The notes beneath the pieces were generated by a model. That model saw only the letters and a program-made list of their open reading frames with translations. It had not been told where the DNA came from and ran no database searches. Made by a program: the position numbers and the translations under genes. This document shows, piece by piece, positions 6,604-26,592 of a stretch of 64,000 nucleotides of DNA. The DNA comes from Desulfomonile tiedjei DSM 6799 (lineage in GTDB: Bacteria; Desulfobacterota; Desulfomonilia; Desulfomonilales; Desulfomonilaceae). Numbering within the stretch: position 1 is the first letter of the stretch; each line of letters opens with the position of its first letter. The stretch is taken from NCBI RefSeq assembly GCF_000266945.1, contig NC_018025.1, forward strand, positions 4,158,001 through 4,222,000. Reading direction: 5' to 3'.

Positions 6604-9054
6604 ATGACAATGGATACGCGCATTAATCGCGCAGGCTATGTCGGACTCTTTATCGTAGCTTCGTCTGCCTTGATGTATGAAATTCTGCTTACACGCATAT
6701 TTAGCGTTACCATGTGGTACCATTTCGCGTTTATGGTTATTTCCATAGCCATGTTCGGTTTGACGGTGGGAGCAGTCTGTGTCTACCTTTATCCGAAATT
6801 CTTTCCTCGAGAGTTAACAAAATACCACCTGTCCTTGTACTCACTGCTTTTTTCAATTTCAATGGTTGCGAGCTTCGTCATCCAACTGTACGTCCCTTTT
6901 TCCTTTCCCTCGGATGACATCCTGTCGCTTTCCGTCGTGGCCAATTGGCTGTTCTGCTATTTCGTCATCTCTGTCCCTTTCATCTTCGGTGGCATTTGCA
7001 CGTGCCTGGCGCTTACAAGATTCCCCATGCAATTGAGTAAATTATATGCCGCTGACCTCGCAGGGGCGGCTGCAGGGTGCGTCATCATCATTGTCTCTCT
7101 GGAGACTACGGACGCGCCCACCACATTGATTTTTATTGCAATTTTTGCCTGTACGGGTGCGTTGTTCTTCCTTTACGGAGAGCAATTCAAGAGATTGACT
7201 GTTGCGGGACTCTTCTGCCTTGTATCCCTCAGCCTGTTGGCCGCAGGCCACTCCTGGTTGACCAGGGAAGGTACTCCATTATTGCAGATCAAGTATGTGA
7301 AAGGTGCGCTCGAACCACCTTCCCTCTATGAAAAATGGAACAGTTTTTCCCGGGTGAAGATCTTCGGCGATCCTGACTTCATGTGCACTCCTTTCGGCTG
7401 GGGATTGAGTCCGAAACCCGTCGGCGATACCCGCGTGCGACAATTGTGGCTCAATATCGATGCCCATGCAACCACGATACTGACGAAGTTTGATGGGGAT
7501 ATTCGGCCGCTCTCCTATCTGAAGTGCGATGTAACCAACTTGGCTCATTGGATTAAGCCGAATGCGGACGTTCTCGTCATTGGGGCAGGAGGCGGCAGAG
7601 ATCTGCTTTCAGCACTCGTATTCGACCAGAAATCCGTATTGGGTGTTGAGATGAATCCCGCTATAGTGTCGGCTGTCAACGGTCCATTCGGAGAGTTTTC
7701 GGGACATTTGGACAAACATCCCAAGATTCGGTTTGTCGTGGACGAGGCTCGCAGCTATGTCGCACGTGAGAACGATCGGTTCGATATTATCCAAATATCG
7801 TTGATCGATACGTGGGCGGCTACTGCCGCAGGCGCATTCGTATTGACCGAGAATTCTCTTTACACTCTGGAAGGGTGGAAGATTTTTCTCCAACACCTCA
7901 CGCCTGACGGCATTATTGCCGTCTCTCGAGGCAGCGCCGCGGAGAACTACCGAGTTGCGTCACTTGCGCGAGCAGCGCTCCTCTCCCTGGGAGTGTCCGA
8001 ACCGGAAAACAACATAGCTGTTGTCAAGTTTCGAACGGTGGCGACAACTCTCGCATCCAGATCTCCGCTGTCTGCACATCAGCTCGATACTCTTGAAAAT
8101 GTGTCCAAAGAAATGGGGTTCAACGTTGCATACAGCCCTCGAGGGGGAACGGATAAGTTTTATCCCCCTATAGTGAAAGGTGAAAATACGGGATCTTTTG
8201 AGGATCGTTACCTGATCGATCTGGCTCCTCCTACGGACGACAAGCCTTTCTTCTTCCACATGCTGAGGCCAACGGACTTTTTCCGCTTTTGGACCATGAG
8301 CGACAATTTAGGAATGGGGCGGAATGCAGGAGCAGTACAGATTTTGCTGCTCGTGATCATTGTTGTGACTATTCTAACAGGAGTATTCATCCTTTTGCCG
8401 ATCTTCGCCAAGGCAGGCCTGCCTGTGTATCGGAAAGCCGCTCCGTTCATGCTCTTTTTTGCAGGGATAGGCCTGGGCTTTATGTTTGTAGAGATATCTC
8501 AATTGCAGCGCTTCAACATTTTCCTGGGGCATCCTTCGTACAGCCTTTCGGTCGTGCTTTTTACGTTACTCCTGTCGTGCGGATTTGGCAGCTATCTGAC
8601 GTGGAAAGTCGATACGACAAGATCCTTTCGACCGACAGCGGTGAGGCTTATCATGCTGCTCGGAGCATTGCTCTTTTTCGGGCTCCTCACTCCGAAAATC
8701 ATACAAACCTTTCAGGCATCCGCCACGGTGGTCAGAATATTAATCGCGGTCGGCATTCTGACCCCGCTGGGATTATTCATGGGGATGGCCTTTCCCCTGG
8801 GAATGTCTGTCGCGTCCAGGACCCATCCGAACCTTGCGCCATGGTTATGGGGAGTCAACGGTGCAACATCGGTGTGCGGGTCCGTGTTGGCGCTTGGTGT
8901 CGCACTCTTTTTCGGAATCTCCACAGCTTTCTGGCTGGGTGCATGCTGCTACGTTATCAGCGGTATTGCCCTTTACTTCTCAATTTCCGGCAAGCAGACG
9001 GATTCGACGGCGGAAGAGTGTGCGGATCAGGGGGTTAGCTCACAGGTGGCGTAG
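6604..9054 (+). CDS. Multi-pass membrane protein with spermidine-synthase-like domain
   Basis: This 816-residue protein has about seven transmembrane helices (roughly residues 10-225), then a soluble Rossmann-type methyltransferase/spermidine-synthase fold (about 310-470), then another set of helices (about 565-800). The nucleotide-binding-like segment VLVIGAGGGRDLLSAL and the acidic VLGVEMNP are clear. The aminopropyltransferase catalytic segment is replaced by QISLIDTWAATAAGAF, so polyamine synthesis is not assured. Similar fused proteins are annotated as spermidine synthase-like membrane proteins of unknown substrate. A GAGGGGAA Shine-Dalgarno fits the ATG. It is a single gene divergent from pst. 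Confidence 0.85.
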   Translation: MTMDTRINRAGYVGLFIVASSALMYEILLTRIFSVTMWYHFAFMVISIAMFGLTVGAVCVYLYPKFFPRELTKYHLSLYSLLFSISMVASFVIQLYVPFSFPSDDILSLSVVANWLFCYFVISVPFIFGGICTCLALTRFPMQLSKLYAADLAGAAAGCVIIIVSLETTDAPTTLIFIAIFACTGALFFLYGEQFKRLTVAGLFCLVSLSLLAAGHSWLTREGTPLLQIKYVKGALEPPSLYEKWNSFSRVKIFGDPDFMCTPFGWGLSPKPVGDTRVRQLWLNIDAHATTILTKFDGDIRPLSYLKCDVTNLAHWIKPNADVLVIGAGGGRDLLSALVFDQKSVLGVEMNPAIVSAVNGPFGEFSGHLDKHPKIRFVVDEARSYVARENDRFDIIQISLIDTWAATAAGAFVLTENSLYTLEGWKIFLQHLTPDGIIAVSRGSAAENYRVASLARAALLSLGVSEPENNIAVVKFRTVATTLASRSPLSAHQLDTLENVSKEMGFNVAYSPRGGTDKFYPPIVKGENTGSFEDRYLIDLAPPTDDKPFFFHMLRPTDFFRFWTMSDNLGMGRNAGAVQILLLVIIVVTILTGVFILLPIFAKAGLPVYRKAAPFMLFFAGIGLGFMFVEISQLQRFNIFLGHPSYSLSVVLFTLLLSCGFGSYLTWKVDTTRSFRPTAVRLIMLLGALLFFGLLTPKIIQTFQASATVVRILIAVGILTPLGLFMGMAFPLGMSVASRTHPNLAPWLWGVNGATSVCGSVLALGVALFFGISTAFWLGACCYVISGIALYFSISGKQTDSTAEECADQGVSSQVA

Positions 9055-9074
9055 CAGAGTCTCAAAACTAAAAA

Positions 9075-9104
9075 CCCCCAGAAAAGCTTTAGCTCTTCCG
9101 GGGG
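9075..9104 (-). terminator. Rho-independent terminator on the minus strand
   Basis: Stem CCCCC.GAA.AGCT / AGCT.TTC.GGGGG with a TT loop. Read on the minus strand it is followed by GGGGGTTTTTAG, a classic T-tract. No minus-strand gene ends here except the tRNA-Gly fragment at 9130. This fits the idea that it was the original terminator of the tRNA-Gly gene before island insertion. It could also serve the plus-strand gene ending at 9054. Confidence 0.75.
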
Positions 9105-9129
9105 CCCGAAGTAAAGTAAAGTTACTCTC

Positions 9130-9155
9130 TGGAGCGGGAAAACGGGATTTGAACC
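9130..9155 (-). pseudogene. 3'-terminal fragment of tRNA-Gly (putative att repeat)
   Basis: The plus strand reads TGGAGCGGGAAAACGGGATT then TGAACC. This matches the 3' end (CCA, acceptor strand, part of the T-arm) of the intact tRNA-Gly at 35403-35477, apart from one extra A. Orientation is the same as the intact tRNA. No anticodon or D-arm follows. This is the pattern left when an element integrates at a tRNA 3' end. A decayed tRNA duplicate is the alternative. Confidence 0.7.
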
Positions 9156-9212
9156 TTTTTCACTGCCAAGTAATAGTCATAATATCAACCTATTACCTTA
9201 TCATAACTGCTA

Positions 9213-9230
9213 TTGCAGACACTTTGCAGA
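9213..9230 (+). repeat. 18-bp direct repeat near left island border
   Basis: TTGCAGACACTTTGCAGA is found here and at 35343-35360, in the same orientation, 57 and 42 bp inside the two proposed borders. It is itself an imperfect double repeat of TTGCAGA. It could be an arm-type integrase site. Confidence 0.7.
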
Positions 9231-9284
9231 ATCGATTGTCCTGACGCTAGCTGGACCTTTCGCAACCCACTGGTATTTAAGTGA

Positions 9285-9457
9285 GGATACCTTATGAGTC
9301 CCCGAATCTTGAATTCTCAAAATGGCCCCAGGTGTTCCACAGCGAACAACTCACCGCAGCGCTTCTGGATCGCCTTACCCATCACGCTCACATCCTGACC
9401 ATGAACGGAGAGAGCTATAGGTTCAAACAGAGCATGTCCAAAAAGAAGAAACAATGA
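9285..9457 (+). pseudogene. IS21-family IstB C-terminal remnant
   Basis: The frame ending in TGA at 9457 reads ...FSKWPQVF then TAALLDRLTHHAHILTMNGE and YRF. This is the C-terminus of the IS21 helper ATPase IstB (typically LLDRLTHHCHILEMNG). Only about 55 codons remain, and an in-frame stop lies just upstream. The Walker motifs and the partner istA are gone. It marks past transposition at the left end of the signalling block. Confidence 0.8.
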
Positions 9458-9464
9458 TTCTATG

Positions 9465-11510
9465 TTAGTCATGCTTGAGGTCTATTCGGACTTCAGCCCC
9501 CCGGCATCCTTCCAAAGTAATTTCGCCTCGAAATCTTTTGGCGAAAGCCTGTACGAGCTTAAGACCCAATGAAACACTCTTTTCCACGGTGTAATTCTCG
9601 GGAAACCCTACACCATCATCACGCACAACCAACTGATACTCGTTCCCTGAGATCCTCCGCAGAGTTATTTCTATGACACCTTCGCCCCCTTTGGGGAAGG
9701 CGTGCTTCAGAGCGTTTGTCACGAGCTCCGTTAGGATAAGGCCGCACGGAATAGCATTATCAATATCGAATACTACTGGCTGCATTTTTGTTGTAAGTGC
9801 TATTCTAGTATCTTCGTCACTTTGGAAGCCGATTAGGTCCTCCGCGAGTTCCGACAAATATTCGTCCATTCTGATTTTGCCCAGATCATCCGATTGGTAT
9901 AGTTTCTCATGGACACGAGCCATCGCAAGAACGCGTGCCTCCGCCTCTCTGAGGCTCGCCCTATGGTCCTCGTCAGCAATGTGGTCGGCCTGAAGAATGA
10001 GGAGCCCCGCAATCATTTGAAAGTTGTTTTTGACCCTGTGATGTAGTTCCCTGAGAAGCACTTCTTTCTCTATAAGGGAAGCCTTGATCTGGTCCTCGGC
10101 TTTCTTGCGTTCTGTGATGTCCTGGTGATGCCACAACTGGCCATAGCGGTTCCCGTCGATGAATATAGGAACGAAATCTCGTAGATAGGTCCGTCCATCG
10201 CTCATAGCGACTTCCTCAGCCTTTACCGGGCGTTGCTGAGCAACAATCTCCTGTATGCGAGCGACGGCTTCGGCAGGCGGGGCGTAAGAATCCCGGATTT
10301 TTTGAATCATTTCGCTCGGCGACAGCCCATGCAGGCCGCTGGGAACATCGTCCAAATCGAACATGTCACAGAAAGCTTGATTGGCAAACTCGATCTTGCC
10401 TTCTTCTGACACGAGCAGCACTCCAGAATGCAAGCCTGAAAGCATAGTGTAGAATCGTTGGAACGTAGCTCTTAGAATATCTTCCGTCCGCTTGCGCTCA
10501 CTTATGTCTCTTATGACGCCGCAAATGTGCCAACAATCAGTAGATTCATCGTGAATGAGCCGAGCGTTAGTAGAACACTGTGTCACTCTTCCATCCTTGC
10601 ACTTGAGAGAAAGCTCATGGTCCGAGACCGCTCCATCTTCAGAGAGCTTGGCAATGAGCAATTGTCTTTCCTCAGGAACATGATAGATGCTCAAAATCGA
10701 TGAGCCCACTAATTCCTCTCTTGAGAAACCAAGGACGGTCTCGACTGATGGACTGACTTCCACCACTGTGCCGTTGAGAAGGGTTTCCATATAAACATCC
10801 TGAATGTTTTCAAAGACTCGCCGGTGTCTCTCTTCACTCTCCCTAAGCGCTTCTTCCGCTCTTTTCCGTTCCGTGACATCTTCGAGCAGTCCGATTCCTC
10901 CGACCACTGATCCGTCTTGAGACACCATCGGGGCAAACTCGCACTTGATCGCTGAAGTCTTATTTCCCAGGACGGACGTGTAGTAATCTTCGTAATGGCT
11001 GTCTTCACCGGAGAGAGTCTTCCTAATTGCAGCAATGGCGTGCCGATCTTTCAAGTCTGCAAACAGATTCAGTCTGATGACATCTTCTCTCGAAGCGCCG
11101 ATCACATGTGCGAAATTGCTGTTACAAGCTGTGACTGCTCCGTGGTGGTCGAAATGGATGACCCCGATCGGGGCATTTTCAAAAATTAGCCTGTACTTCT
11201 CCTCAGCCTGCCTTAACTGGTCGTTCAAATTACGGAGTTGGCTTTGCATGATATCACCGATGTTGGTCAAGCGCATTGATTGGCTGAGCAGCTTCCTGTA
11301 TTTGTCCAAGAGGTTCCGATAGTGTGACGGCCATGCGTCATCCGAAGGAGCCAAGCATTCAATGAGTTCTTCGGCTGTTCGTATGGTTTCCTCTTCTTCG
11401 TGGAAAAGACTGTGATTCATAGCGGCAACCATTCCAATTAGTTCATAAAATCCGTTAGCTTGGCATAGATGCCTAACCCCACAATGAGCCAGTGGCGGCT
11501 GGCATCCCAA
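9465..11510 (-). CDS. PAS-domain sensor histidine kinase, HisKA_2 type
   Basis: 681 residues, cytoplasmic (no transmembrane span seen). After an N-terminal helical segment come three PAS domains (about 90-210, 215-335, 345-460). They are followed by a HisKA_2 dimerisation domain with the phospho-acceptor in LRELHHRVKNNFQMI (about residue 480) and an HATPase with LILTELVTNALKHAFP and DDGVGFP. There is no receiver, so it must signal in trans. The annotated first codon gives an odd leader. Met27 (11432) or Met32 (11417) is more likely the true start. It follows siaC on the same strand after 250 bp holding a repeat, so it may or may not share that transcript. Confidence 0.92.
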   Translation of the reverse strand: MGCQPPLAHCGVRHLCQANGFYELIGMVAAMNHSLFHEEEETIRTAEELIECLAPSDDAWPSHYRNLLDKYRKLLSQSMRLTNIGDIMQSQLRNLNDQLRQAEEKYRLIFENAPIGVIHFDHHGAVTACNSNFAHVIGASREDVIRLNLFADLKDRHAIAAIRKTLSGEDSHYEDYYTSVLGNKTSAIKCEFAPMVSQDGSVVGGIGLLEDVTERKRAEEALRESEERHRRVFENIQDVYMETLLNGTVVEVSPSVETVLGFSREELVGSSILSIYHVPEERQLLIAKLSEDGAVSDHELSLKCKDGRVTQCSTNARLIHDESTDCWHICGVIRDISERKRTEDILRATFQRFYTMLSGLHSGVLLVSEEGKIEFANQAFCDMFDLDDVPSGLHGLSPSEMIQKIRDSYAPPAEAVARIQEIVAQQRPVKAEEVAMSDGRTYLRDFVPIFIDGNRYGQLWHHQDITERKKAEDQIKASLIEKEVLLRELHHRVKNNFQMIAGLLILQADHIADEDHRASLREAEARVLAMARVHEKLYQSDDLGKIRMDEYLSELAEDLIGFQSDEDTRIALTTKMQPVVFDIDNAIPCGLILTELVTNALKHAFPKGGEGVIEITLRRISGNEYQLVVRDDGVGFPENYTVEKSVSLGLKLVQAFAKRFRGEITLEGCRGAEVRIDLKHD

Positions 11511-19087: not shown

Positions 19088-20824
19088 TCAACTCCATCCC
19101 TGAACTTCAGCTTGCTTGAATATCATCGAAAATTCGGTGTGTTCGGATGTGTCAAAACGAACCTCGCCTTGAAGCTTCCTCGCGAAGGCAGCCACCAACT
19201 CCAGGCCCAATGAACCTGAATTCTCTGGTCGCATTTCCCCCAAAATCCCTATTCCGTCATCTCTGATCACAAGTTCGAATAAATCTCTGTCCAATGATCG
19301 AAGGCGTACTTGGACTGTGCCTCCTCCACCTTCAGGAAATCCATGTGTCATGGTGTTGCCTAGGAGTTCTGTAATGATTATGCCTATGGGAATAGCCGTT
19401 TCCAGACTGAAGCAGATCTTATCGACATGAATATCGAGAGCGATTTTCGCGGTGGATTCATCACTAAACCCTATCAAGTCGTTCACGAGATCTGTGACAT
19501 ATTCATCAATCCGTATTTGGGCTAGGTTGCCAGATCCGTAAAGCTTTTCGTGAACTAGAGCCATTGCCTTTATCCGAGCATTCGCGCTCCTTAGCACGTC
19601 GACCGCTTTTTGTTCGTCAACATGGTCGGCCTGAAGAGTGAACAGCGCCGAGATGACCTGCAAATTGTTCTTCACTCTGTGGTGGATCTCTCTCATTAGC
19701 ACCTCTTTTTCCTTCAGGGATGCTTTCAACCGTTCTTCCGCTATCTTTCTCTCTGTGATGTCCCTTGCAATAGCCTGAACTCCCGTGATCTGGGCATCTT
19801 TCAACAGGAGTTGCACGTTTTGGCCAATCCATATTGTGGTTCCATTTTTGGCAACAATTGGGAACTCGTAGTAAGTCTGAGGAGTTCTTTCGGCCATCTG
19901 CGACGAGTACCATTTAATGACCTCTTCAACGTGATCGGGATGAATAAGAAGGTAGTATGGTCGCCCCACAAGCTCTTCAACAGCATATCCGCTCTGGTTA
20001 AGGGCGACCGGGTTGAGATAAGTAAACCGCCCCCGGTCGTCAGTGGTATATATACTGTCATTGGCGCTTTCCACGACCCGTCGATATCGTTCTTCGGTCG
20101 CGACAAGCTCTCTTTCGACAGCTCTCCGCCTGCTAATTTCGGTTGTCAGCGCGTGGTTGTGCTTCTGCTCAAGAAGGAGTTGTCTCTGTTCAATCGTCAG
20201 ATCCTCCACGAGCGTCATTACCAGCCTTTCCGTTCCAAGCCTAATCGATCGAAACGTAATACGGCCCCAAATCTCGATGGGTTTGATACCTAAGGCAGCA
20301 TTCAAGACTCGTTGTTGTCGCGTGACAAAGACTTCCTTCACTGTTTCTTCCGCCTTCGCAGACTCCGTGAGATCAGAGAGTATGCTTGCGAATGGCTTTC
20401 CAACTATCTTTTCGTAGTCAGAACCCAATCTCTCACAAACCCGGTTTGCTGCAGCAATGTTGCAGGACTGATCGATTAGGAAAGCCATTATGGGTAGTGC
20501 CTGGAGTAGCTTTCCCAGGCTTGTTGTCCAGATCGTACAGCCCAGGTGAAAACTGCCTGACTCTGTGATATCCGATGAGAGTAGCTGAGTTAGGTCAAGT
20601 GTAACCGTATTTTGAGAATGAGGGTGTGGAAATGACGAAGGGTCGGAGCCTTCTGACCGATCGACCAGATCGATCTCAGCATCAGCCTCGGGGAACGCTC
20701 GCGAAATGCCGAGACCCACGCTTCGATTTGGCGAGCATGGTTCTGAATGCTCTCCACTGCGGCAATCTTCTTTCATACTTTTCTCCAGCGGATAGAACCT
20801 GAAAATGTTGACCATTGCCTCCAT
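19088..20824 (-). CDS. PAS sensor histidine kinase, HisKA_2 type, with LDL..SGSF leader
   Basis: 578 residues. A variable 75-residue leader is followed by LDLTQLLSSDITESGSFHL, a segment closely matched at the start of the kinase at 24583. A degenerate PAS (about 105-220), a second PAS (about 245-365), HisKA_2 (acceptor in MREIHHRVKNNLQVI) and HATPase (ITELLGNTMTHGFPEGGGG) follow. No receiver is present. The first ATG lies in a weak context. Met17 (20776) has TGGAG at good distance. It is the first gene of the minus-strand series that runs down to siaC. Confidence 0.91.
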   Translation of the reverse strand: MEAMVNIFRFYPLEKSMKEDCRSGEHSEPCSPNRSVGLGISRAFPEADAEIDLVDRSEGSDPSSFPHPHSQNTVTLDLTQLLSSDITESGSFHLGCTIWTTSLGKLLQALPIMAFLIDQSCNIAAANRVCERLGSDYEKIVGKPFASILSDLTESAKAEETVKEVFVTRQQRVLNAALGIKPIEIWGRITFRSIRLGTERLVMTLVEDLTIEQRQLLLEQKHNHALTTEISRRRAVERELVATEERYRRVVESANDSIYTTDDRGRFTYLNPVALNQSGYAVEELVGRPYYLLIHPDHVEEVIKWYSSQMAERTPQTYYEFPIVAKNGTTIWIGQNVQLLLKDAQITGVQAIARDITERKIAEERLKASLKEKEVLMREIHHRVKNNLQVISALFTLQADHVDEQKAVDVLRSANARIKAMALVHEKLYGSGNLAQIRIDEYVTDLVNDLIGFSDESTAKIALDIHVDKICFSLETAIPIGIIITELLGNTMTHGFPEGGGGTVQVRLRSLDRDLFELVIRDDGIGILGEMRPENSGSLGLELVAAFARKLQGEVRFDTSEHTEFSMIFKQAEVQGWS

Positions 20825-22604: not shown

Positions 22605-23552
22605 ATGAACAAGCCTAAGATTTGTGCCAAGCAAGCTTTAGAAGATATTCAAGCAGGCAATGATGATGATTACCTCATGAAGAAATACAGGCTTTCGCCA
22701 AAAGGTCTCCAAAGCCTGTTCCAAAAATTGGGACAGGCTGGGATCATCAAGCATTTGAATGCACATGAGGTAATGGCAGACCTGAGAACTGGAATTAGCA
22801 GCCAAGGTCTCATGAAAAAATATGGGCTGACGTCAGAAGGACTGCAGAACCTGTTCCAGGAGCTCGATCGCGCAGGTCTTCTGAGGGGAACTGCTGAACA
22901 GCGCGGGGTGCCATCCAAGGTGGTCATCAACATTCACCGGATAGCGGAAGATATTCGGGTGGGTCTGACCAAGAGCCAGCTAATGCAGAAATACCATCTG
23001 AGCGCCCGAGGTCTAAGATGGATATCAATGACCCTCATCAGTTCGGGAGCGATCGCATGGTGGGAAATATACGACAGCCTTTGCGCAAATTACGAAGACC
23101 TGATTCCGGACAGGTTGAGGCAAACTAGGAGATACCCGCTGCCATTTCATTGCCCTGTCCATGAAGCGGACAATCCGCATGTGGTTGGACAATTGCGGGA
23201 CGTTTCCGAGAATGGACTGGGAGTCGTCGGCATGAGAGCCCGCACAGGCGACACGAAGAATCTTGTAATACAAGGTGATGAGTTCGGTGAGTTCGCCAGC
23301 TTTTCACTCGAGAGTACATGCCGTTGGATCACGAAAGACCAACGAGGAGTATTTGTGGCCGGGTTCGAGATTTCCCATATCTCGATTGGAAATTTGAAGG
23401 AATTCGAATTATTGCTTCATATAGTGAAGTCGCGAGTAGAGACAAACCGTTCCTCAGTGGGAGGCACGTGTTTCGCGGAGGTACCTGTCTCAGACGGGAG
23501 ACTGACGAGAAATGAGAAGCGGTCGGATATTGCGTCCGACTTAATGGATTGA
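22605..23552 (+). CDS. PilZ-domain protein with three tandem helical repeats
   Basis: 315 residues. The first 150 hold three copies of a ~35-residue module, for example DIQAGNDDDYLMKKYRLS and DLRTGISSQGLMKKYGLT, each continuing as (K/E)GLQxLFxxLxxAG(I/L). I do not know a name for the module; its spacing resembles a helix-turn-helix. A PilZ domain follows (about 180-285) with the c-di-GMP motif: RQTRR and DVSENG (DxSxxG). Strong AGGAGGGG before the ATG. It heads a cluster with two related genes and a kinase. A c-di-GMP-responsive adaptor is plausible. Confidence 0.8.
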   Translation: MNKPKICAKQALEDIQAGNDDDYLMKKYRLSPKGLQSLFQKLGQAGIIKHLNAHEVMADLRTGISSQGLMKKYGLTSEGLQNLFQELDRAGLLRGTAEQRGVPSKVVINIHRIAEDIRVGLTKSQLMQKYHLSARGLRWISMTLISSGAIAWWEIYDSLCANYEDLIPDRLRQTRRYPLPFHCPVHEADNPHVVGQLRDVSENGLGVVGMRARTGDTKNLVIQGDEFGEFASFSLESTCRWITKDQRGVFVAGFEISHISIGNLKEFELLLHIVKSRVETNRSSVGGTCFAEVPVSDGRLTRNEKRSDIASDLMD

Positions 23553-23580
23553 GAACAGGTTTGCGAGGTGTCGGTTCATA

Positions 23581-23814
23581 ATGCGAAAGATCGGTGCAAA
23601 AGAAATAACCGCTGATATCAGGGCCGGGATGGGCGACTACCAGCTAATGGAAAAATACAGACTTTCTGCAAAACAGTTGGAAATCATACTGAGGAAACTG
23701 CTGGAAGCTGACCTTATCACCCACATGCAACTCTATGAAAGAACGAGCCTGTCGGATAGTCAAATAACGAAGGCATTTGTCGATTCGCAACAAGCTGTCG
23801 GAGAATTAGAGTAG
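23581..23814 (+). CDS. Small single-module protein related to its PilZ neighbours
   Basis: 77 residues consisting of one copy of the repeated module (DIRAGMGDYQLMEKYRLS, then AKQLEIILRKLLEADLI) plus a short tail THMQLYERTSLSDSQ. It resembles the start of the next protein (ITHEELYRRSSL) and so looks like a truncated or stand-alone paralogue lacking PilZ. It lies 28 bp after the previous gene with GAGGT upstream. Function unknown; possibly a dimerisation competitor. Confidence 0.7.
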   Translation: MRKIGAKEITADIRAGMGDYQLMEKYRLSAKQLEIILRKLLEADLITHMQLYERTSLSDSQITKAFVDSQQAVGELE

Positions 23815-23824
23815 CGGCTCGGCG

Positions 23825-24586
23825 ATGAGCCACTCAATCCAGATTCGCCATTCCAGGAACATCGGACTAATGGATTCCAAACAACCAATTCCCGCAAACA
23901 TAGTGCTTCATGACATTCGTTCCGGTCTGGGGGATAATGGGATCATGGCTAAACATGGCCTATCGCAGAAAAGCCTTGAGACCCTTTTCCAGAAGCTCCT
24001 CGCCGCGAAGCTTATTACCCATGAAGAACTCTACAGGAGATCTTCCCTGTACAAGAAAAAGATGGACCGGATCGTGAGCCGATCGCACCTAAGGGCAGAG
24101 ATTGGAGTGAGCATCCCCATTTATGATGTCACATGCGGCAGGGTGGGACTAATGAGGGACATCTCAGAAAAAGGGCTGCGCGTGGCTGGAATCCCAGCAG
24201 AGAAGGGGGATGAGAGGACATTTCAAATTCCTGTCGGCATGCTCATGCAAGCTGATCCCTTGCTGGTGATAGCCGAATGCAGATGGGTTACGATAAAGGG
24301 CAAAGAAAGAAAATACCATGTGGCAGGATTCGAGATCAAAGTTGTGTCTATGAGCGACCGAAGGCTTCTCAAAAGCTTGGTCGATCTTTTGTTGGCGCGA
24401 GCTGCCAGTGGCAAGTCGGGGAGAGAGAGCCTTAAAGAGATCGCAGAATCCCATGTATGCTCTCCAACTGATATTCAGGAACTGTTTTTGAAAGAGGATC
24501 ACGGTGTTAGCCTGTCACATCAAAGCTCTGCGAAAAATGTTGCAGCACGTTGTTCCGCCGTGACAGACGCGGAGAGTACTAGATGA
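23825..24586 (+). CDS. PilZ-domain protein with one helical module
   Basis: 253 residues. One module (DIRSGLGDNGIMAKHGLSQKS...LFQKLLAAKLI) followed by a PilZ domain (about 75-200) with both c-di-GMP signatures, RSHLR (RxxxR) and DISEKG (DxSxxG). A C-terminal tail with SPTDIQELFLKED follows. Paralogous to 22605-23552 but with a single module. The stop overlaps the kinase start by 4 bp (ATGA), so PilZ protein and kinase are probably made together and may interact. The start may be the internal Met (LMDSKQ) rather than 23825. Confidence 0.8.
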   Translation: MSHSIQIRHSRNIGLMDSKQPIPANIVLHDIRSGLGDNGIMAKHGLSQKSLETLFQKLLAAKLITHEELYRRSSLYKKKMDRIVSRSHLRAEIGVSIPIYDVTCGRVGLMRDISEKGLRVAGIPAEKGDERTFQIPVGMLMQADPLLVIAECRWVTIKGKERKYHVAGFEIKVVSMSDRRLLKSLVDLLLARAASGKSGRESLKEIAESHVCSPTDIQELFLKEDHGVSLSHQSSAKNVAARCSAVTDAESTR

Positions 24587-26592
24587 ATTTTTCTGGTGAA
24601 AAGACTTCTCAAACGCTGGATTTAAACCAATTGTTTCCTTTGAGCCTTACCCAATCCGGGAGTTTCGACCTTAGGAGAATTCAATACAATTCCTTTGAGT
24701 CTGTGCTTCAGGCGCTGTCGATTCCTACCTTGCTTGTGGGTCGTAGCCACACTATAGAGTTGGCTAACGACTCTTTCATTTCGTTAGCGAACAACCTTGA
24801 TCCGGTCGGACTGAAATTTTCGTCGCTATTCTTGGACAACAAAGAGCTAGAGCATCAGCAGTGGCTAGAACATGCCATTGCAGAGAGAAAACACCACGTC
24901 AAAGAGACGATCCTACAATTTGGAGACAAGACCGTTTGGGTCCGTATGCACTTGCGAACCATCAGGTTGGCCACCGATCACATGCTCTTGGTTCAAATAG
25001 AGAACCTGACAGCGGAAAAAGAACTTTCGATGAGCCAGAAATACAAAAATCTCATCAACATTTTTCCCATAGGAGTCGCTGAATTTGCACCGAGAGAAAA
25101 ACTGTCAAGAAATCTTCGTCCAGATGAGCTATGGCGGGCTATGTTGACCTTTCGGCTGGTGGATGCAAATACCGAGTTCGCCAAGATGCACGGACATAGG
25201 TATCCAGACACGCTTGTCGGCCTTACGATGAGCCAATTCTTTCCAGATATAGGAAAGAGCAGGAGACTTCTCGCGAAATGGGTTAACAATGATTTTCAGA
25301 CACTTTCATTCGAGCGAAAAGAAAAGAGTTTCGGGCGGCCATCGTCGAATTTTGAAAACACGTTGATCTTGAATGCAAACGATCAAGCAATGCTGGGAAT
25401 CTGGTGGCTGAAGAGAGACATATCGGAAAGAAAAAGAATTGAGCGGGAAATGTTAAGGGCGCAAAAACTTGACTCCCTGGGACTCTTGGCCGGCGGGATA
25501 GCCCATGATTTCAACAACCTGCTGACAGCAATTCTCGGGAACATTTCTCTAGGCCTGAGCTATTCGGATGTCAGCCCAAAATCACTTGAACGGTTCCAAG
25601 CGGCGATTAGCGCCACAAATCGAGCTAGAGACTTGACAAACCAACTGCTGACCTTCTCGAAAGGAGGAGCACCTCTAAAGAAGCCAGGATCACTCGCTGA
25701 CTTACTCAAAGAATGTGCAGGCTTTATTCTCAGGGGCTCTAAAATTCGGTGTAAATGCTCGATCTCCAATAATCTGTGGGCAGTAGATATGGATCAAGGA
25801 CAAATCAGCCAGGTTGTCAACAACCTGCTCATAAATGCAGTGGATGCAATGCCCAACGGCGGGGTTGTGCTTGTCAGAGCCACGAATGCAGACATTCCCG
25901 ACAACGACAAGATTCCTCTGAAAAAAGGGAAATACGTAAAAGCCTCAATTACGGACAAAGGTTGCGGTATAAGGAAGGAAATTGCCCAAAAGATATTCGA
26001 TCCATATTTTACCACTAAGAAAAAAGGGAGTGGTTTGGGGCTGTCAACCTCATATTTTATAATTAAGAAACACGGGGGGATGATAACGGTTAGATCAAAA
26101 GTGGGCGTAGGTACGACTTTCCAATTTTTTCTCCCGGCCACATCGTCTAGCTCGAACCCTTCCGAGGAAACAGAGAAATTGTCTGTTGGAGCTGGTGGCA
26201 GAATCCTGTTCATGGACGACGACGTCCTTGTACGCGATATCGCTGTGGAGCTGCTGAGCAGTCTGGGGTATGAGGTCACACCGGCTTGCGATGGCGAGGA
26301 GGCCCTTGAACTGTGCAAGGCTGCAGTCGCACAGGGTAGATTGTTCGACGTTGCAATTCTTGACTTAACCGTCCCAGGGGCCATGGGAGGAGAAGAGACC
26401 GCCCCTAAAATGCTCGAAATCGATTCAAGTCTGAGGATTATCGCTTCCAGTGGATACGCTAACAGCATGGTCATGTCTGATTACGCATCTTACGGATTTA
26501 CAGCGATTCTGCCAAAGCCGTATGATGCAAAAAAATTGGCTGCAACAGTTGGCAAAGTAATCGCGAATAATCCTCCGGGTCATGAAGGATAA
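24583..26592 (+). CDS. Hybrid sensor histidine kinase (PAS-PAS-HisKA-HATPase-REC)
   Basis: 669 residues. Near the N-terminus lies LDLNQLFPLSLTQSGSFDL, matching the leader of the kinase at 19088. Two PAS-like regions (about 40-140 and 150-285) follow, then HisKA with His308 in LLAGGIAHDFNNLL, HATPase (NNLLINAVDAMP, DKGCGI, GSGLGLST) and a receiver (ILFMDDD, acceptor in VAILDLTVPGAMGG). No transmembrane span. Translationally coupled to the PilZ gene. The GGIAHDFNNLL-type kinase often signals through its own receiver or by exchange with other receivers. Confidence 0.92.
   Translation: MNFSGEKTSQTLDLNQLFPLSLTQSGSFDLRRIQYNSFESVLQALSIPTLLVGRSHTIELANDSFISLANNLDPVGLKFSSLFLDNKELEHQQWLEHAIAERKHHVKETILQFGDKTVWVRMHLRTIRLATDHMLLVQIENLTAEKELSMSQKYKNLINIFPIGVAEFAPREKLSRNLRPDELWRAMLTFRLVDANTEFAKMHGHRYPDTLVGLTMSQFFPDIGKSRRLLAKWVNNDFQTLSFERKEKSFGRPSSNFENTLILNANDQAMLGIWWLKRDISERKRIEREMLRAQKLDSLGLLAGGIAHDFNNLLTAILGNISLGLSYSDVSPKSLERFQAAISATNRARDLTNQLLTFSKGGAPLKKPGSLADLLKECAGFILRGSKIRCKCSISNNLWAVDMDQGQISQVVNNLLINAVDAMPNGGVVLVRATNADIPDNDKIPLKKGKYVKASITDKGCGIRKEIAQKIFDPYFTTKKKGSGLGLSTSYFIIKKHGGMITVRSKVGVGTTFQFFLPATSSSSNPSEETEKLSVGAGGRILFMDDDVLVRDIAVELLSSLGYEVTPACDGEEALELCKAAVAQGRLFDVAILDLTVPGAMGGEETAPKMLEIDSSLRIIASSGYANSMVMSDYASYGFTAILPKPYDAKKLAATVGKVIANNPPGHEG

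Follow-up and report, generated by a model that had tools for sequence, protein, structure and literature searches.

A predicted helix-turn-helix-like module shared by adjacent PilZ proteins defines a large family in the Desulfomonilaceae with a putative role in protein docking

Introduction

Three adjacent genes (p1, p2 and p3) of the window analyzed here, a stretch of 64,000 nucleotides from the chromosome (6,500,104 bp) of a Desulfomonile-type genome of 6,527,027 bases, encode copies of a short sequence module, which is followed by a PilZ domain in p1 and p3, stands alone in p2, and lies immediately upstream of a gene encoding a hybrid histidine kinase. A preliminary description of this locus had presented the module as an unnamed unit of roughly 35 residues, either a compact helix-turn-helix or an adaptor domain, that might be used for interaction. 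The locus hence raises the question of what this module is, how widely it is used, and what it contributes next to PilZ domains and a kinase.

Results

The module in the window

A profile built from module copies located elsewhere in the genome, with those of the window excluded, recovered the five copies originally proposed (three in p1 and one each in p2 and p3) as its sole matches among the 369 open reading frames (ORFs) of the window, with E-values ranging from 6e-14 to 3e-21 and a next best value of 0.22 (Table 1). The module spans approximately 45-50 residues, rather than the 35 first estimated, with consensus AKEIVADIRAGLTDAELMEKYGLSAKGLQSLLRKLLEAGLLTPEEL and conserved residues at D7, R9, G11, L17, M18, K20, Y21, L23, S24, L28, L35 and E45. 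A further, degenerate module suspected by eye at the C-terminus of p3 (KEIAESHVCSPTDIQELFLK) was left unscored by the module profile and was discarded.

The genes are separated by 28 bases (p1-p2) and 10 bases (p2-p3), and the start of the kinase gene overlaps the p3 stop codon, an arrangement that makes the four genes look like a single operon. A plausible alternative start for p3 lies at Met16 (nucleotide 23870, in the region 23825-23872), and with this start the distance of the p3 module from the N-terminus would match that of most other family members. At another locus (L039), a relative of p2 shows 75% identity.

Table 1. Genes, module copies and PilZ domains of the p1-p2-p3-kinase locus (window coordinates).
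Feature	Coordinates	Strand	Description	Basis
p1	22605..23552	+	315 aa; three modules, then PilZ	ORF, profile and Pfam
p1 module copy 1	22626..22754	+	aa 8-50	i-E 4e-17, profile without window copies
p1 module copy 2	22761..22886	+	aa 53-94; head to tail with copy 1	1.4e-15
p1 module copy 3	22935..23069	+	aa 111-155; adjoins PilZ	6.5e-14
p1 PilZ domain	23115..23405	+	aa 171-267	Pfam PF07238, 36.2 bits
p2	23581..23814	+	77 aa, stand-alone module (23596-23733, aa 6-51)	profile E 3e-21
p3	23825..24586	+	253 aa; one module (23897-24031, aa 25-69), then PilZ	2.3e-18
p3 PilZ domain	24080..24382	+	aa 86-186	Pfam PF07238, 24.7 bits
Hybrid histidine kinase gene	24583..26592	+	669 aa, PAS-PAS-HisKA-HATPase-REC	ORF and Pfam

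A large family with many partner domains

Searching the whole chromosome with the profile returned 72 module matches at E-values up to 1, and an iterated profile applied to the fetched loci yielded 70 module copies on 53 ORFs, among which L080 and L108 are short and doubtful. The module is therefore present in the three adjacent genes to which it had been ascribed, but it is not limited to them, and the scale of the family, with some 70 copies here and around 100 in one relative, had not been foreseen. Most module proteins (40 of 53) carry a single copy, with two copies in 9 and three in 4. The first copy begins within the first 60 residues in 51 of the 53 proteins, and the last copy ends 50 residues or fewer from the C-terminus in only seven, mostly very short ones.

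According to Pfam, the module is joined to PilZ, HD-GYP-type HD_5, PQQ/BamB propeller, ankyrin, pentapeptide and Rce1-like CAAX protease domains, as well as to Yip1, zinc-ribbon/membrane, kinase-like, PAS/HisKA/HATPase/REC and LuxR domains, amounting to more than ten unrelated partner types. A STAS partner scored below the Pfam cut-off, a DUF4388-like partner (L041) was read by eye, and some module proteins are stand-alone copies devoid of any second domain. We also observed that a four-cysteine element (CPACGxPQ...CPxCGxxxSK) often follows the module, as in L085, L123, L063, L126 and others; Pfam zinc-ribbon matches were absent or weak in the proteins with this element that were scanned.

Sequence searches with the module against Pfam, NCBIfam, PHROGs and the PDB returned nothing over cut-off, in agreement with its having been called unnamed, and the best sub-cut-off matches were to the NCBIfam CD3324 family (E 0.003; 17.6 vs 65 bits) and to Pfam HTH_45 (E 0.0011; 19.3 vs 25.5 bits). 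We dismissed PDB sequence matches near E 0.001, which covered 12 residues of designed armadillo repeats. The SHOCT and SHOCT_2 profiles did not match p1, p2 or p3, and the best SHOCT_2 score among 20 other proteins scanned was 19.5 bits (L103), against a cut-off of 24 bits. The open-access papers searched contained nothing on the module or on PilZ in Desulfomonile. The module family is real, large and undescribed in the libraries searched, even if its predicted fold is a familiar one.

Predicted fold and the case for DNA binding

The preliminary description had held that a failure of structure prediction to produce a fold would count against the module; a fold was obtained with AlphaFold. The p2 model, calculated from p2 together with 34 module sequences, contains helices at residues 6-14, 19-25 and 30-42, plus a lower-confidence helix at 48-70, with a mean pLDDT of 77 that rises to about 90 across residues 11-50. 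In the p1 model, three units of three helices each precede a PilZ barrel, which is followed by a C-terminal helix. The core of the module is hence predicted to be a three-helix, helix-turn-helix-like fold, which fits the original suggestion of a compact helix-turn-helix or adaptor domain. Structural matches to the module were weak (Foldseek E >1; best VIA Z 5.9) and mostly involved helix-turn-helix and winged-helix proteins.

A first alternative to be weighed treats the module as a genuine helix-turn-helix that binds DNA, with p1 and p3 as transcription factors controlled by c-di-GMP and p2 as a small DNA-binding cofactor. The predicted core is common to many DNA-binding domains, the structural neighbors of the module are nearly all helix-turn-helix or winged-helix transcription factors, the sub-cut-off Pfam matches of module proteins point to winged-helix families, and the profile weakly matches Rrf2-type regulators. 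However, wing strands are not predicted, and the net charge of the module averages -0.16 (range -7 to +9; n=70 copies), with no consistent basic character, which is a mild counter-argument. The polar columns with the strongest conservation (D7, R9, K20, E45 and R49) all fall outside predicted helix 3, within which the polar columns (26, 29, 30 and 33) are more variable; these conserved residues are presumably exposed at the surface, but they could instead form internal salt bridges of the module. Moreover, among the partners are PQQ propellers and ankyrin repeats, as well as membrane proteins, a CAAX-protease-like protein and entire hybrid kinases, and two module proteins (L081 and L072) already possess a LuxR or phosphorelay output of their own. 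Taken together, the charge of the module, the location of its conserved polar columns and the range of its partners favor protein docking over DNA binding, and we regard the latter as rather unlikely.

PilZ domains

Both PilZ domains exceed the Pfam PF07238 cut-off (22.5 bits) and retain the two c-di-GMP motifs (RxxxR and D/NxSxxG) attributed to them from the outset, with RQTRR at 23118-23132 and DVSENG at 23199-23216 in p1, and RSHLR at 24080-24094 and DISEKG at 24158-24175 in p3. The best structural match of the p1 model is the PilZ domain of YcgR with c-di-GMP (Z 12.9), with MrkH at Z 12.6; p1 and p3 would presumably bind c-di-GMP through PilZ. The association between PilZ and the module extends well beyond this locus: 12 of the 15 PilZ matches of the genome sit in module proteins, and in four other genera a module lies within 900 bases on the same strand for 34 of 45 PilZ matches.

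A recurrent link to hybrid kinases

The 860-residue protein encoded at L072 aligns with the window kinase through residues 191-855 (698 columns; E 6e-55) and with p3 through residues 6-176 (E 2.5e-18), indicating that counterparts of p3 and the kinase are naturally fused in this protein. The same module-PilZ-PAS-kinase-REC fusion is present at a locus from a metagenome-assembled genome (L126). Relatives of the kinase also adjoin genes for module-ankyrin (L090), three-module-PilZ (L067), module-PilZ (L073), module-PQQ (L063) and module-DUF4388-like (L041) proteins, and they recur in a paralogous cluster (L087; C1:2123500-2137000) composed of three-module-PilZ (p1-like), p2-like, kinase and module-PilZ (p3-like) genes. 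In this cluster, the p2-like gene encodes the module plus a cysteine pair, and an upstream ORF (9050-10003) appears by eye to be transposase-like.

Within the genome, 7 of the 20 matches to the N-terminal PAS family of the kinase have a module gene within 5 kb, compared to 1.4 in rotations; once the fusion and the cluster of the window are removed, these figures become 4 of 17 and 1.1, a value reached in 106 of 5000 rotations. In four other genera, 16 of 49 such matches fall within 5 kb vs 4.2 expected (Poisson P 9e-6, under a model that ignores general gene clustering and with fusions included). Across five genera, the proximity of the kinase family to module genes thus exceeds expectation about fourfold, although only a minority of module genes have a kinase of this family nearby (10 of 52 within 5 kb). 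We also noted that both kinases of the window (24583-26592 and 19088-20824) share, at the N-terminus, a PAS region of approximately 150 residues with a TxSGSF signature, present 20 times in the genome; this kinase family itself merits description.

Module evolution and self-association

On a tree of the modules, which is quick and rough given the short sequences, partner labels change 22 times, against 27.7 after shuffling, and none of 300 shuffles was as low. Changes between PilZ and all other partners number 11 vs 21.4, and those between partner-proximal and earlier copies number 6 vs 10. These reduced numbers suggest that whole architectures were duplicated, with repeated exchange of partners.

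The partner signal in the module sequences also speaks for a second alternative, in which the module would be solely a homo-oligomerization device, its copies binding one another without a common heterologous hub. Tandem and stand-alone copies and the promiscuity of the module would further agree with it, since they resemble SHOCT, a proposed oligomerization domain (PMC3581485). Nonetheless, one kinase family recurs in the vicinity of different partner domains, which points to a heterologous partner common to some copies at least, and we deem exclusive self-association unlikely. That the module binds RNA, or marks proteins for regulation or turnover through recognition by an adaptor or protease, is highly improbable. 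Its N-terminal position and the weak superposition of tandem modules on SelB tandem winged helices (rmsd 9.2, Z 5.2) would agree with such a role, but they lend it no specific support, the SelB Z-score being within the range of common arrangements.

Distribution across genomes

Desulfomonilaceae genomes contain from zero to about 100 module copies each; those of genus g5 lack the module and encode 0-1 PilZ proteins, compared to 6-17 in module-rich genomes. When 395 genomes of the phylum were searched with the profile, strong matches were confined to the Desulfomonilaceae, with no convincing member outside the family, and the weak outside matches that were read corresponded mostly to Rrf2-type helix-turn-helix regulators, plus one 148-residue protein (L117). 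The latter, from a genome of another family (f41) of the same phylum, has a weak module-like stretch (26.6 bits) and could be a remote relative of the module. Scanning 84,980 species genomes for the consensus, with an exact peptide word required and remote relatives thus possibly missed, returned 12 Desulfomonilaceae loci and a single 17-residue match in Oscillospiraceae, and the plasmids and phages searched contained no module match. Among the genomes searched, convincing copies of the module are therefore restricted to the Desulfomonilaceae lineage.

Discussion

The explanation that we prefer, and to which we would give an even chance, is that the module is a lineage-specific protein-docking domain that plugs sensors into complexes, conveying at this locus a c-di-GMP input to a hybrid kinase. 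Single or in tandem, and usually N-terminal, it would tether sensor and scaffold domains (PilZ, ankyrin, PQQ, pentapeptide, zinc-ribbon/membrane and others) to each other or to common hubs. Its occurrence in some 53 proteins, its N-terminal position, its diverse partners and its stand-alone copies support this reading, whereas the overlap with the kinase gene, the fusions, the recurring neighborhoods and the proximity statistics point to a family of PAS-containing hybrid histidine kinases as one recurrent hub. At this locus, the PilZ domains of p1 and p3 would bind c-di-GMP and the modules of the two proteins would attach them to the kinase encoded alongside, p2 serving as a free adaptor; the docked proteins would then tune the phosphorelay of the kinase. 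We infer the protein-protein nature of the docking, the binding partner of the module and the regulation of the kinase from these associations, which lend indirect support to the interaction and adaptor roles advanced in the preliminary description and leave their partner putative.

A broader reading, which we offer tentatively as a possibility, is that the Desulfomonilaceae evolved a private plug-in signaling architecture, in which a docking module derived from a helix-turn-helix and present in 30-100 copies per genome would accept partner domains as interchangeable inputs, connecting c-di-GMP receptors as well as ankyrin, PQQ, zinc-ribbon and membrane sensors to common complexes of hybrid kinases. 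A module confined to one family, reaching as many as about 100 copies in a genome yet absent from the curated libraries searched, would account for many otherwise unannotated proteins. If docking holds true, a bacterial lineage would have built a modular signaling network from one small helix-turn-helix unit, providing a handle on c-di-GMP input into the histidine kinases of these sulfate-reducing bacteria, and the idea is directly testable with a single 77-residue protein (p2).

In relation to known systems, the module shares its predicted three-helix core with winged and plain helix-turn-helix domains (Lrp, ArsR-like, Rrf2 and MarR; VIA-align Z up to 5.9), but it differs from them in having no predicted wing, net positive charge or over-cut-off sequence match, and in that its partners are mostly not transcription factors. 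Effector-associated and death-like adaptors are small, promiscuous domains that also occur alone and tether varied partners. They have been described as adaptor domains of bacterial conflict systems (PMC8195603, PMC7159879). The partners of the module are signaling and scaffold domains rather than conflict effectors, and the comparison drawn here is one of mode of use. SHOCT is a very short, promiscuous bacterial domain of about 30 residues, found on many unrelated proteins, that lies within 50 residues of the C-terminus in 89% of SHOCT proteins and for which oligomerization or nucleic-acid binding has been proposed (PMC3581485). The module is likewise short, promiscuous and present on many unrelated proteins; in contrast, it spans 45-50 residues, is N-terminal, has a predicted helix-turn-helix core and produced one sub-cut-off SHOCT_2 match only. 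The two also have a similar AG(L/I)IT..EL ending. Lastly, the PilZ domains of p1 and p3 carry both motifs, as in YcgR and MrkH, but their N-terminal partner consists of one to three modules.
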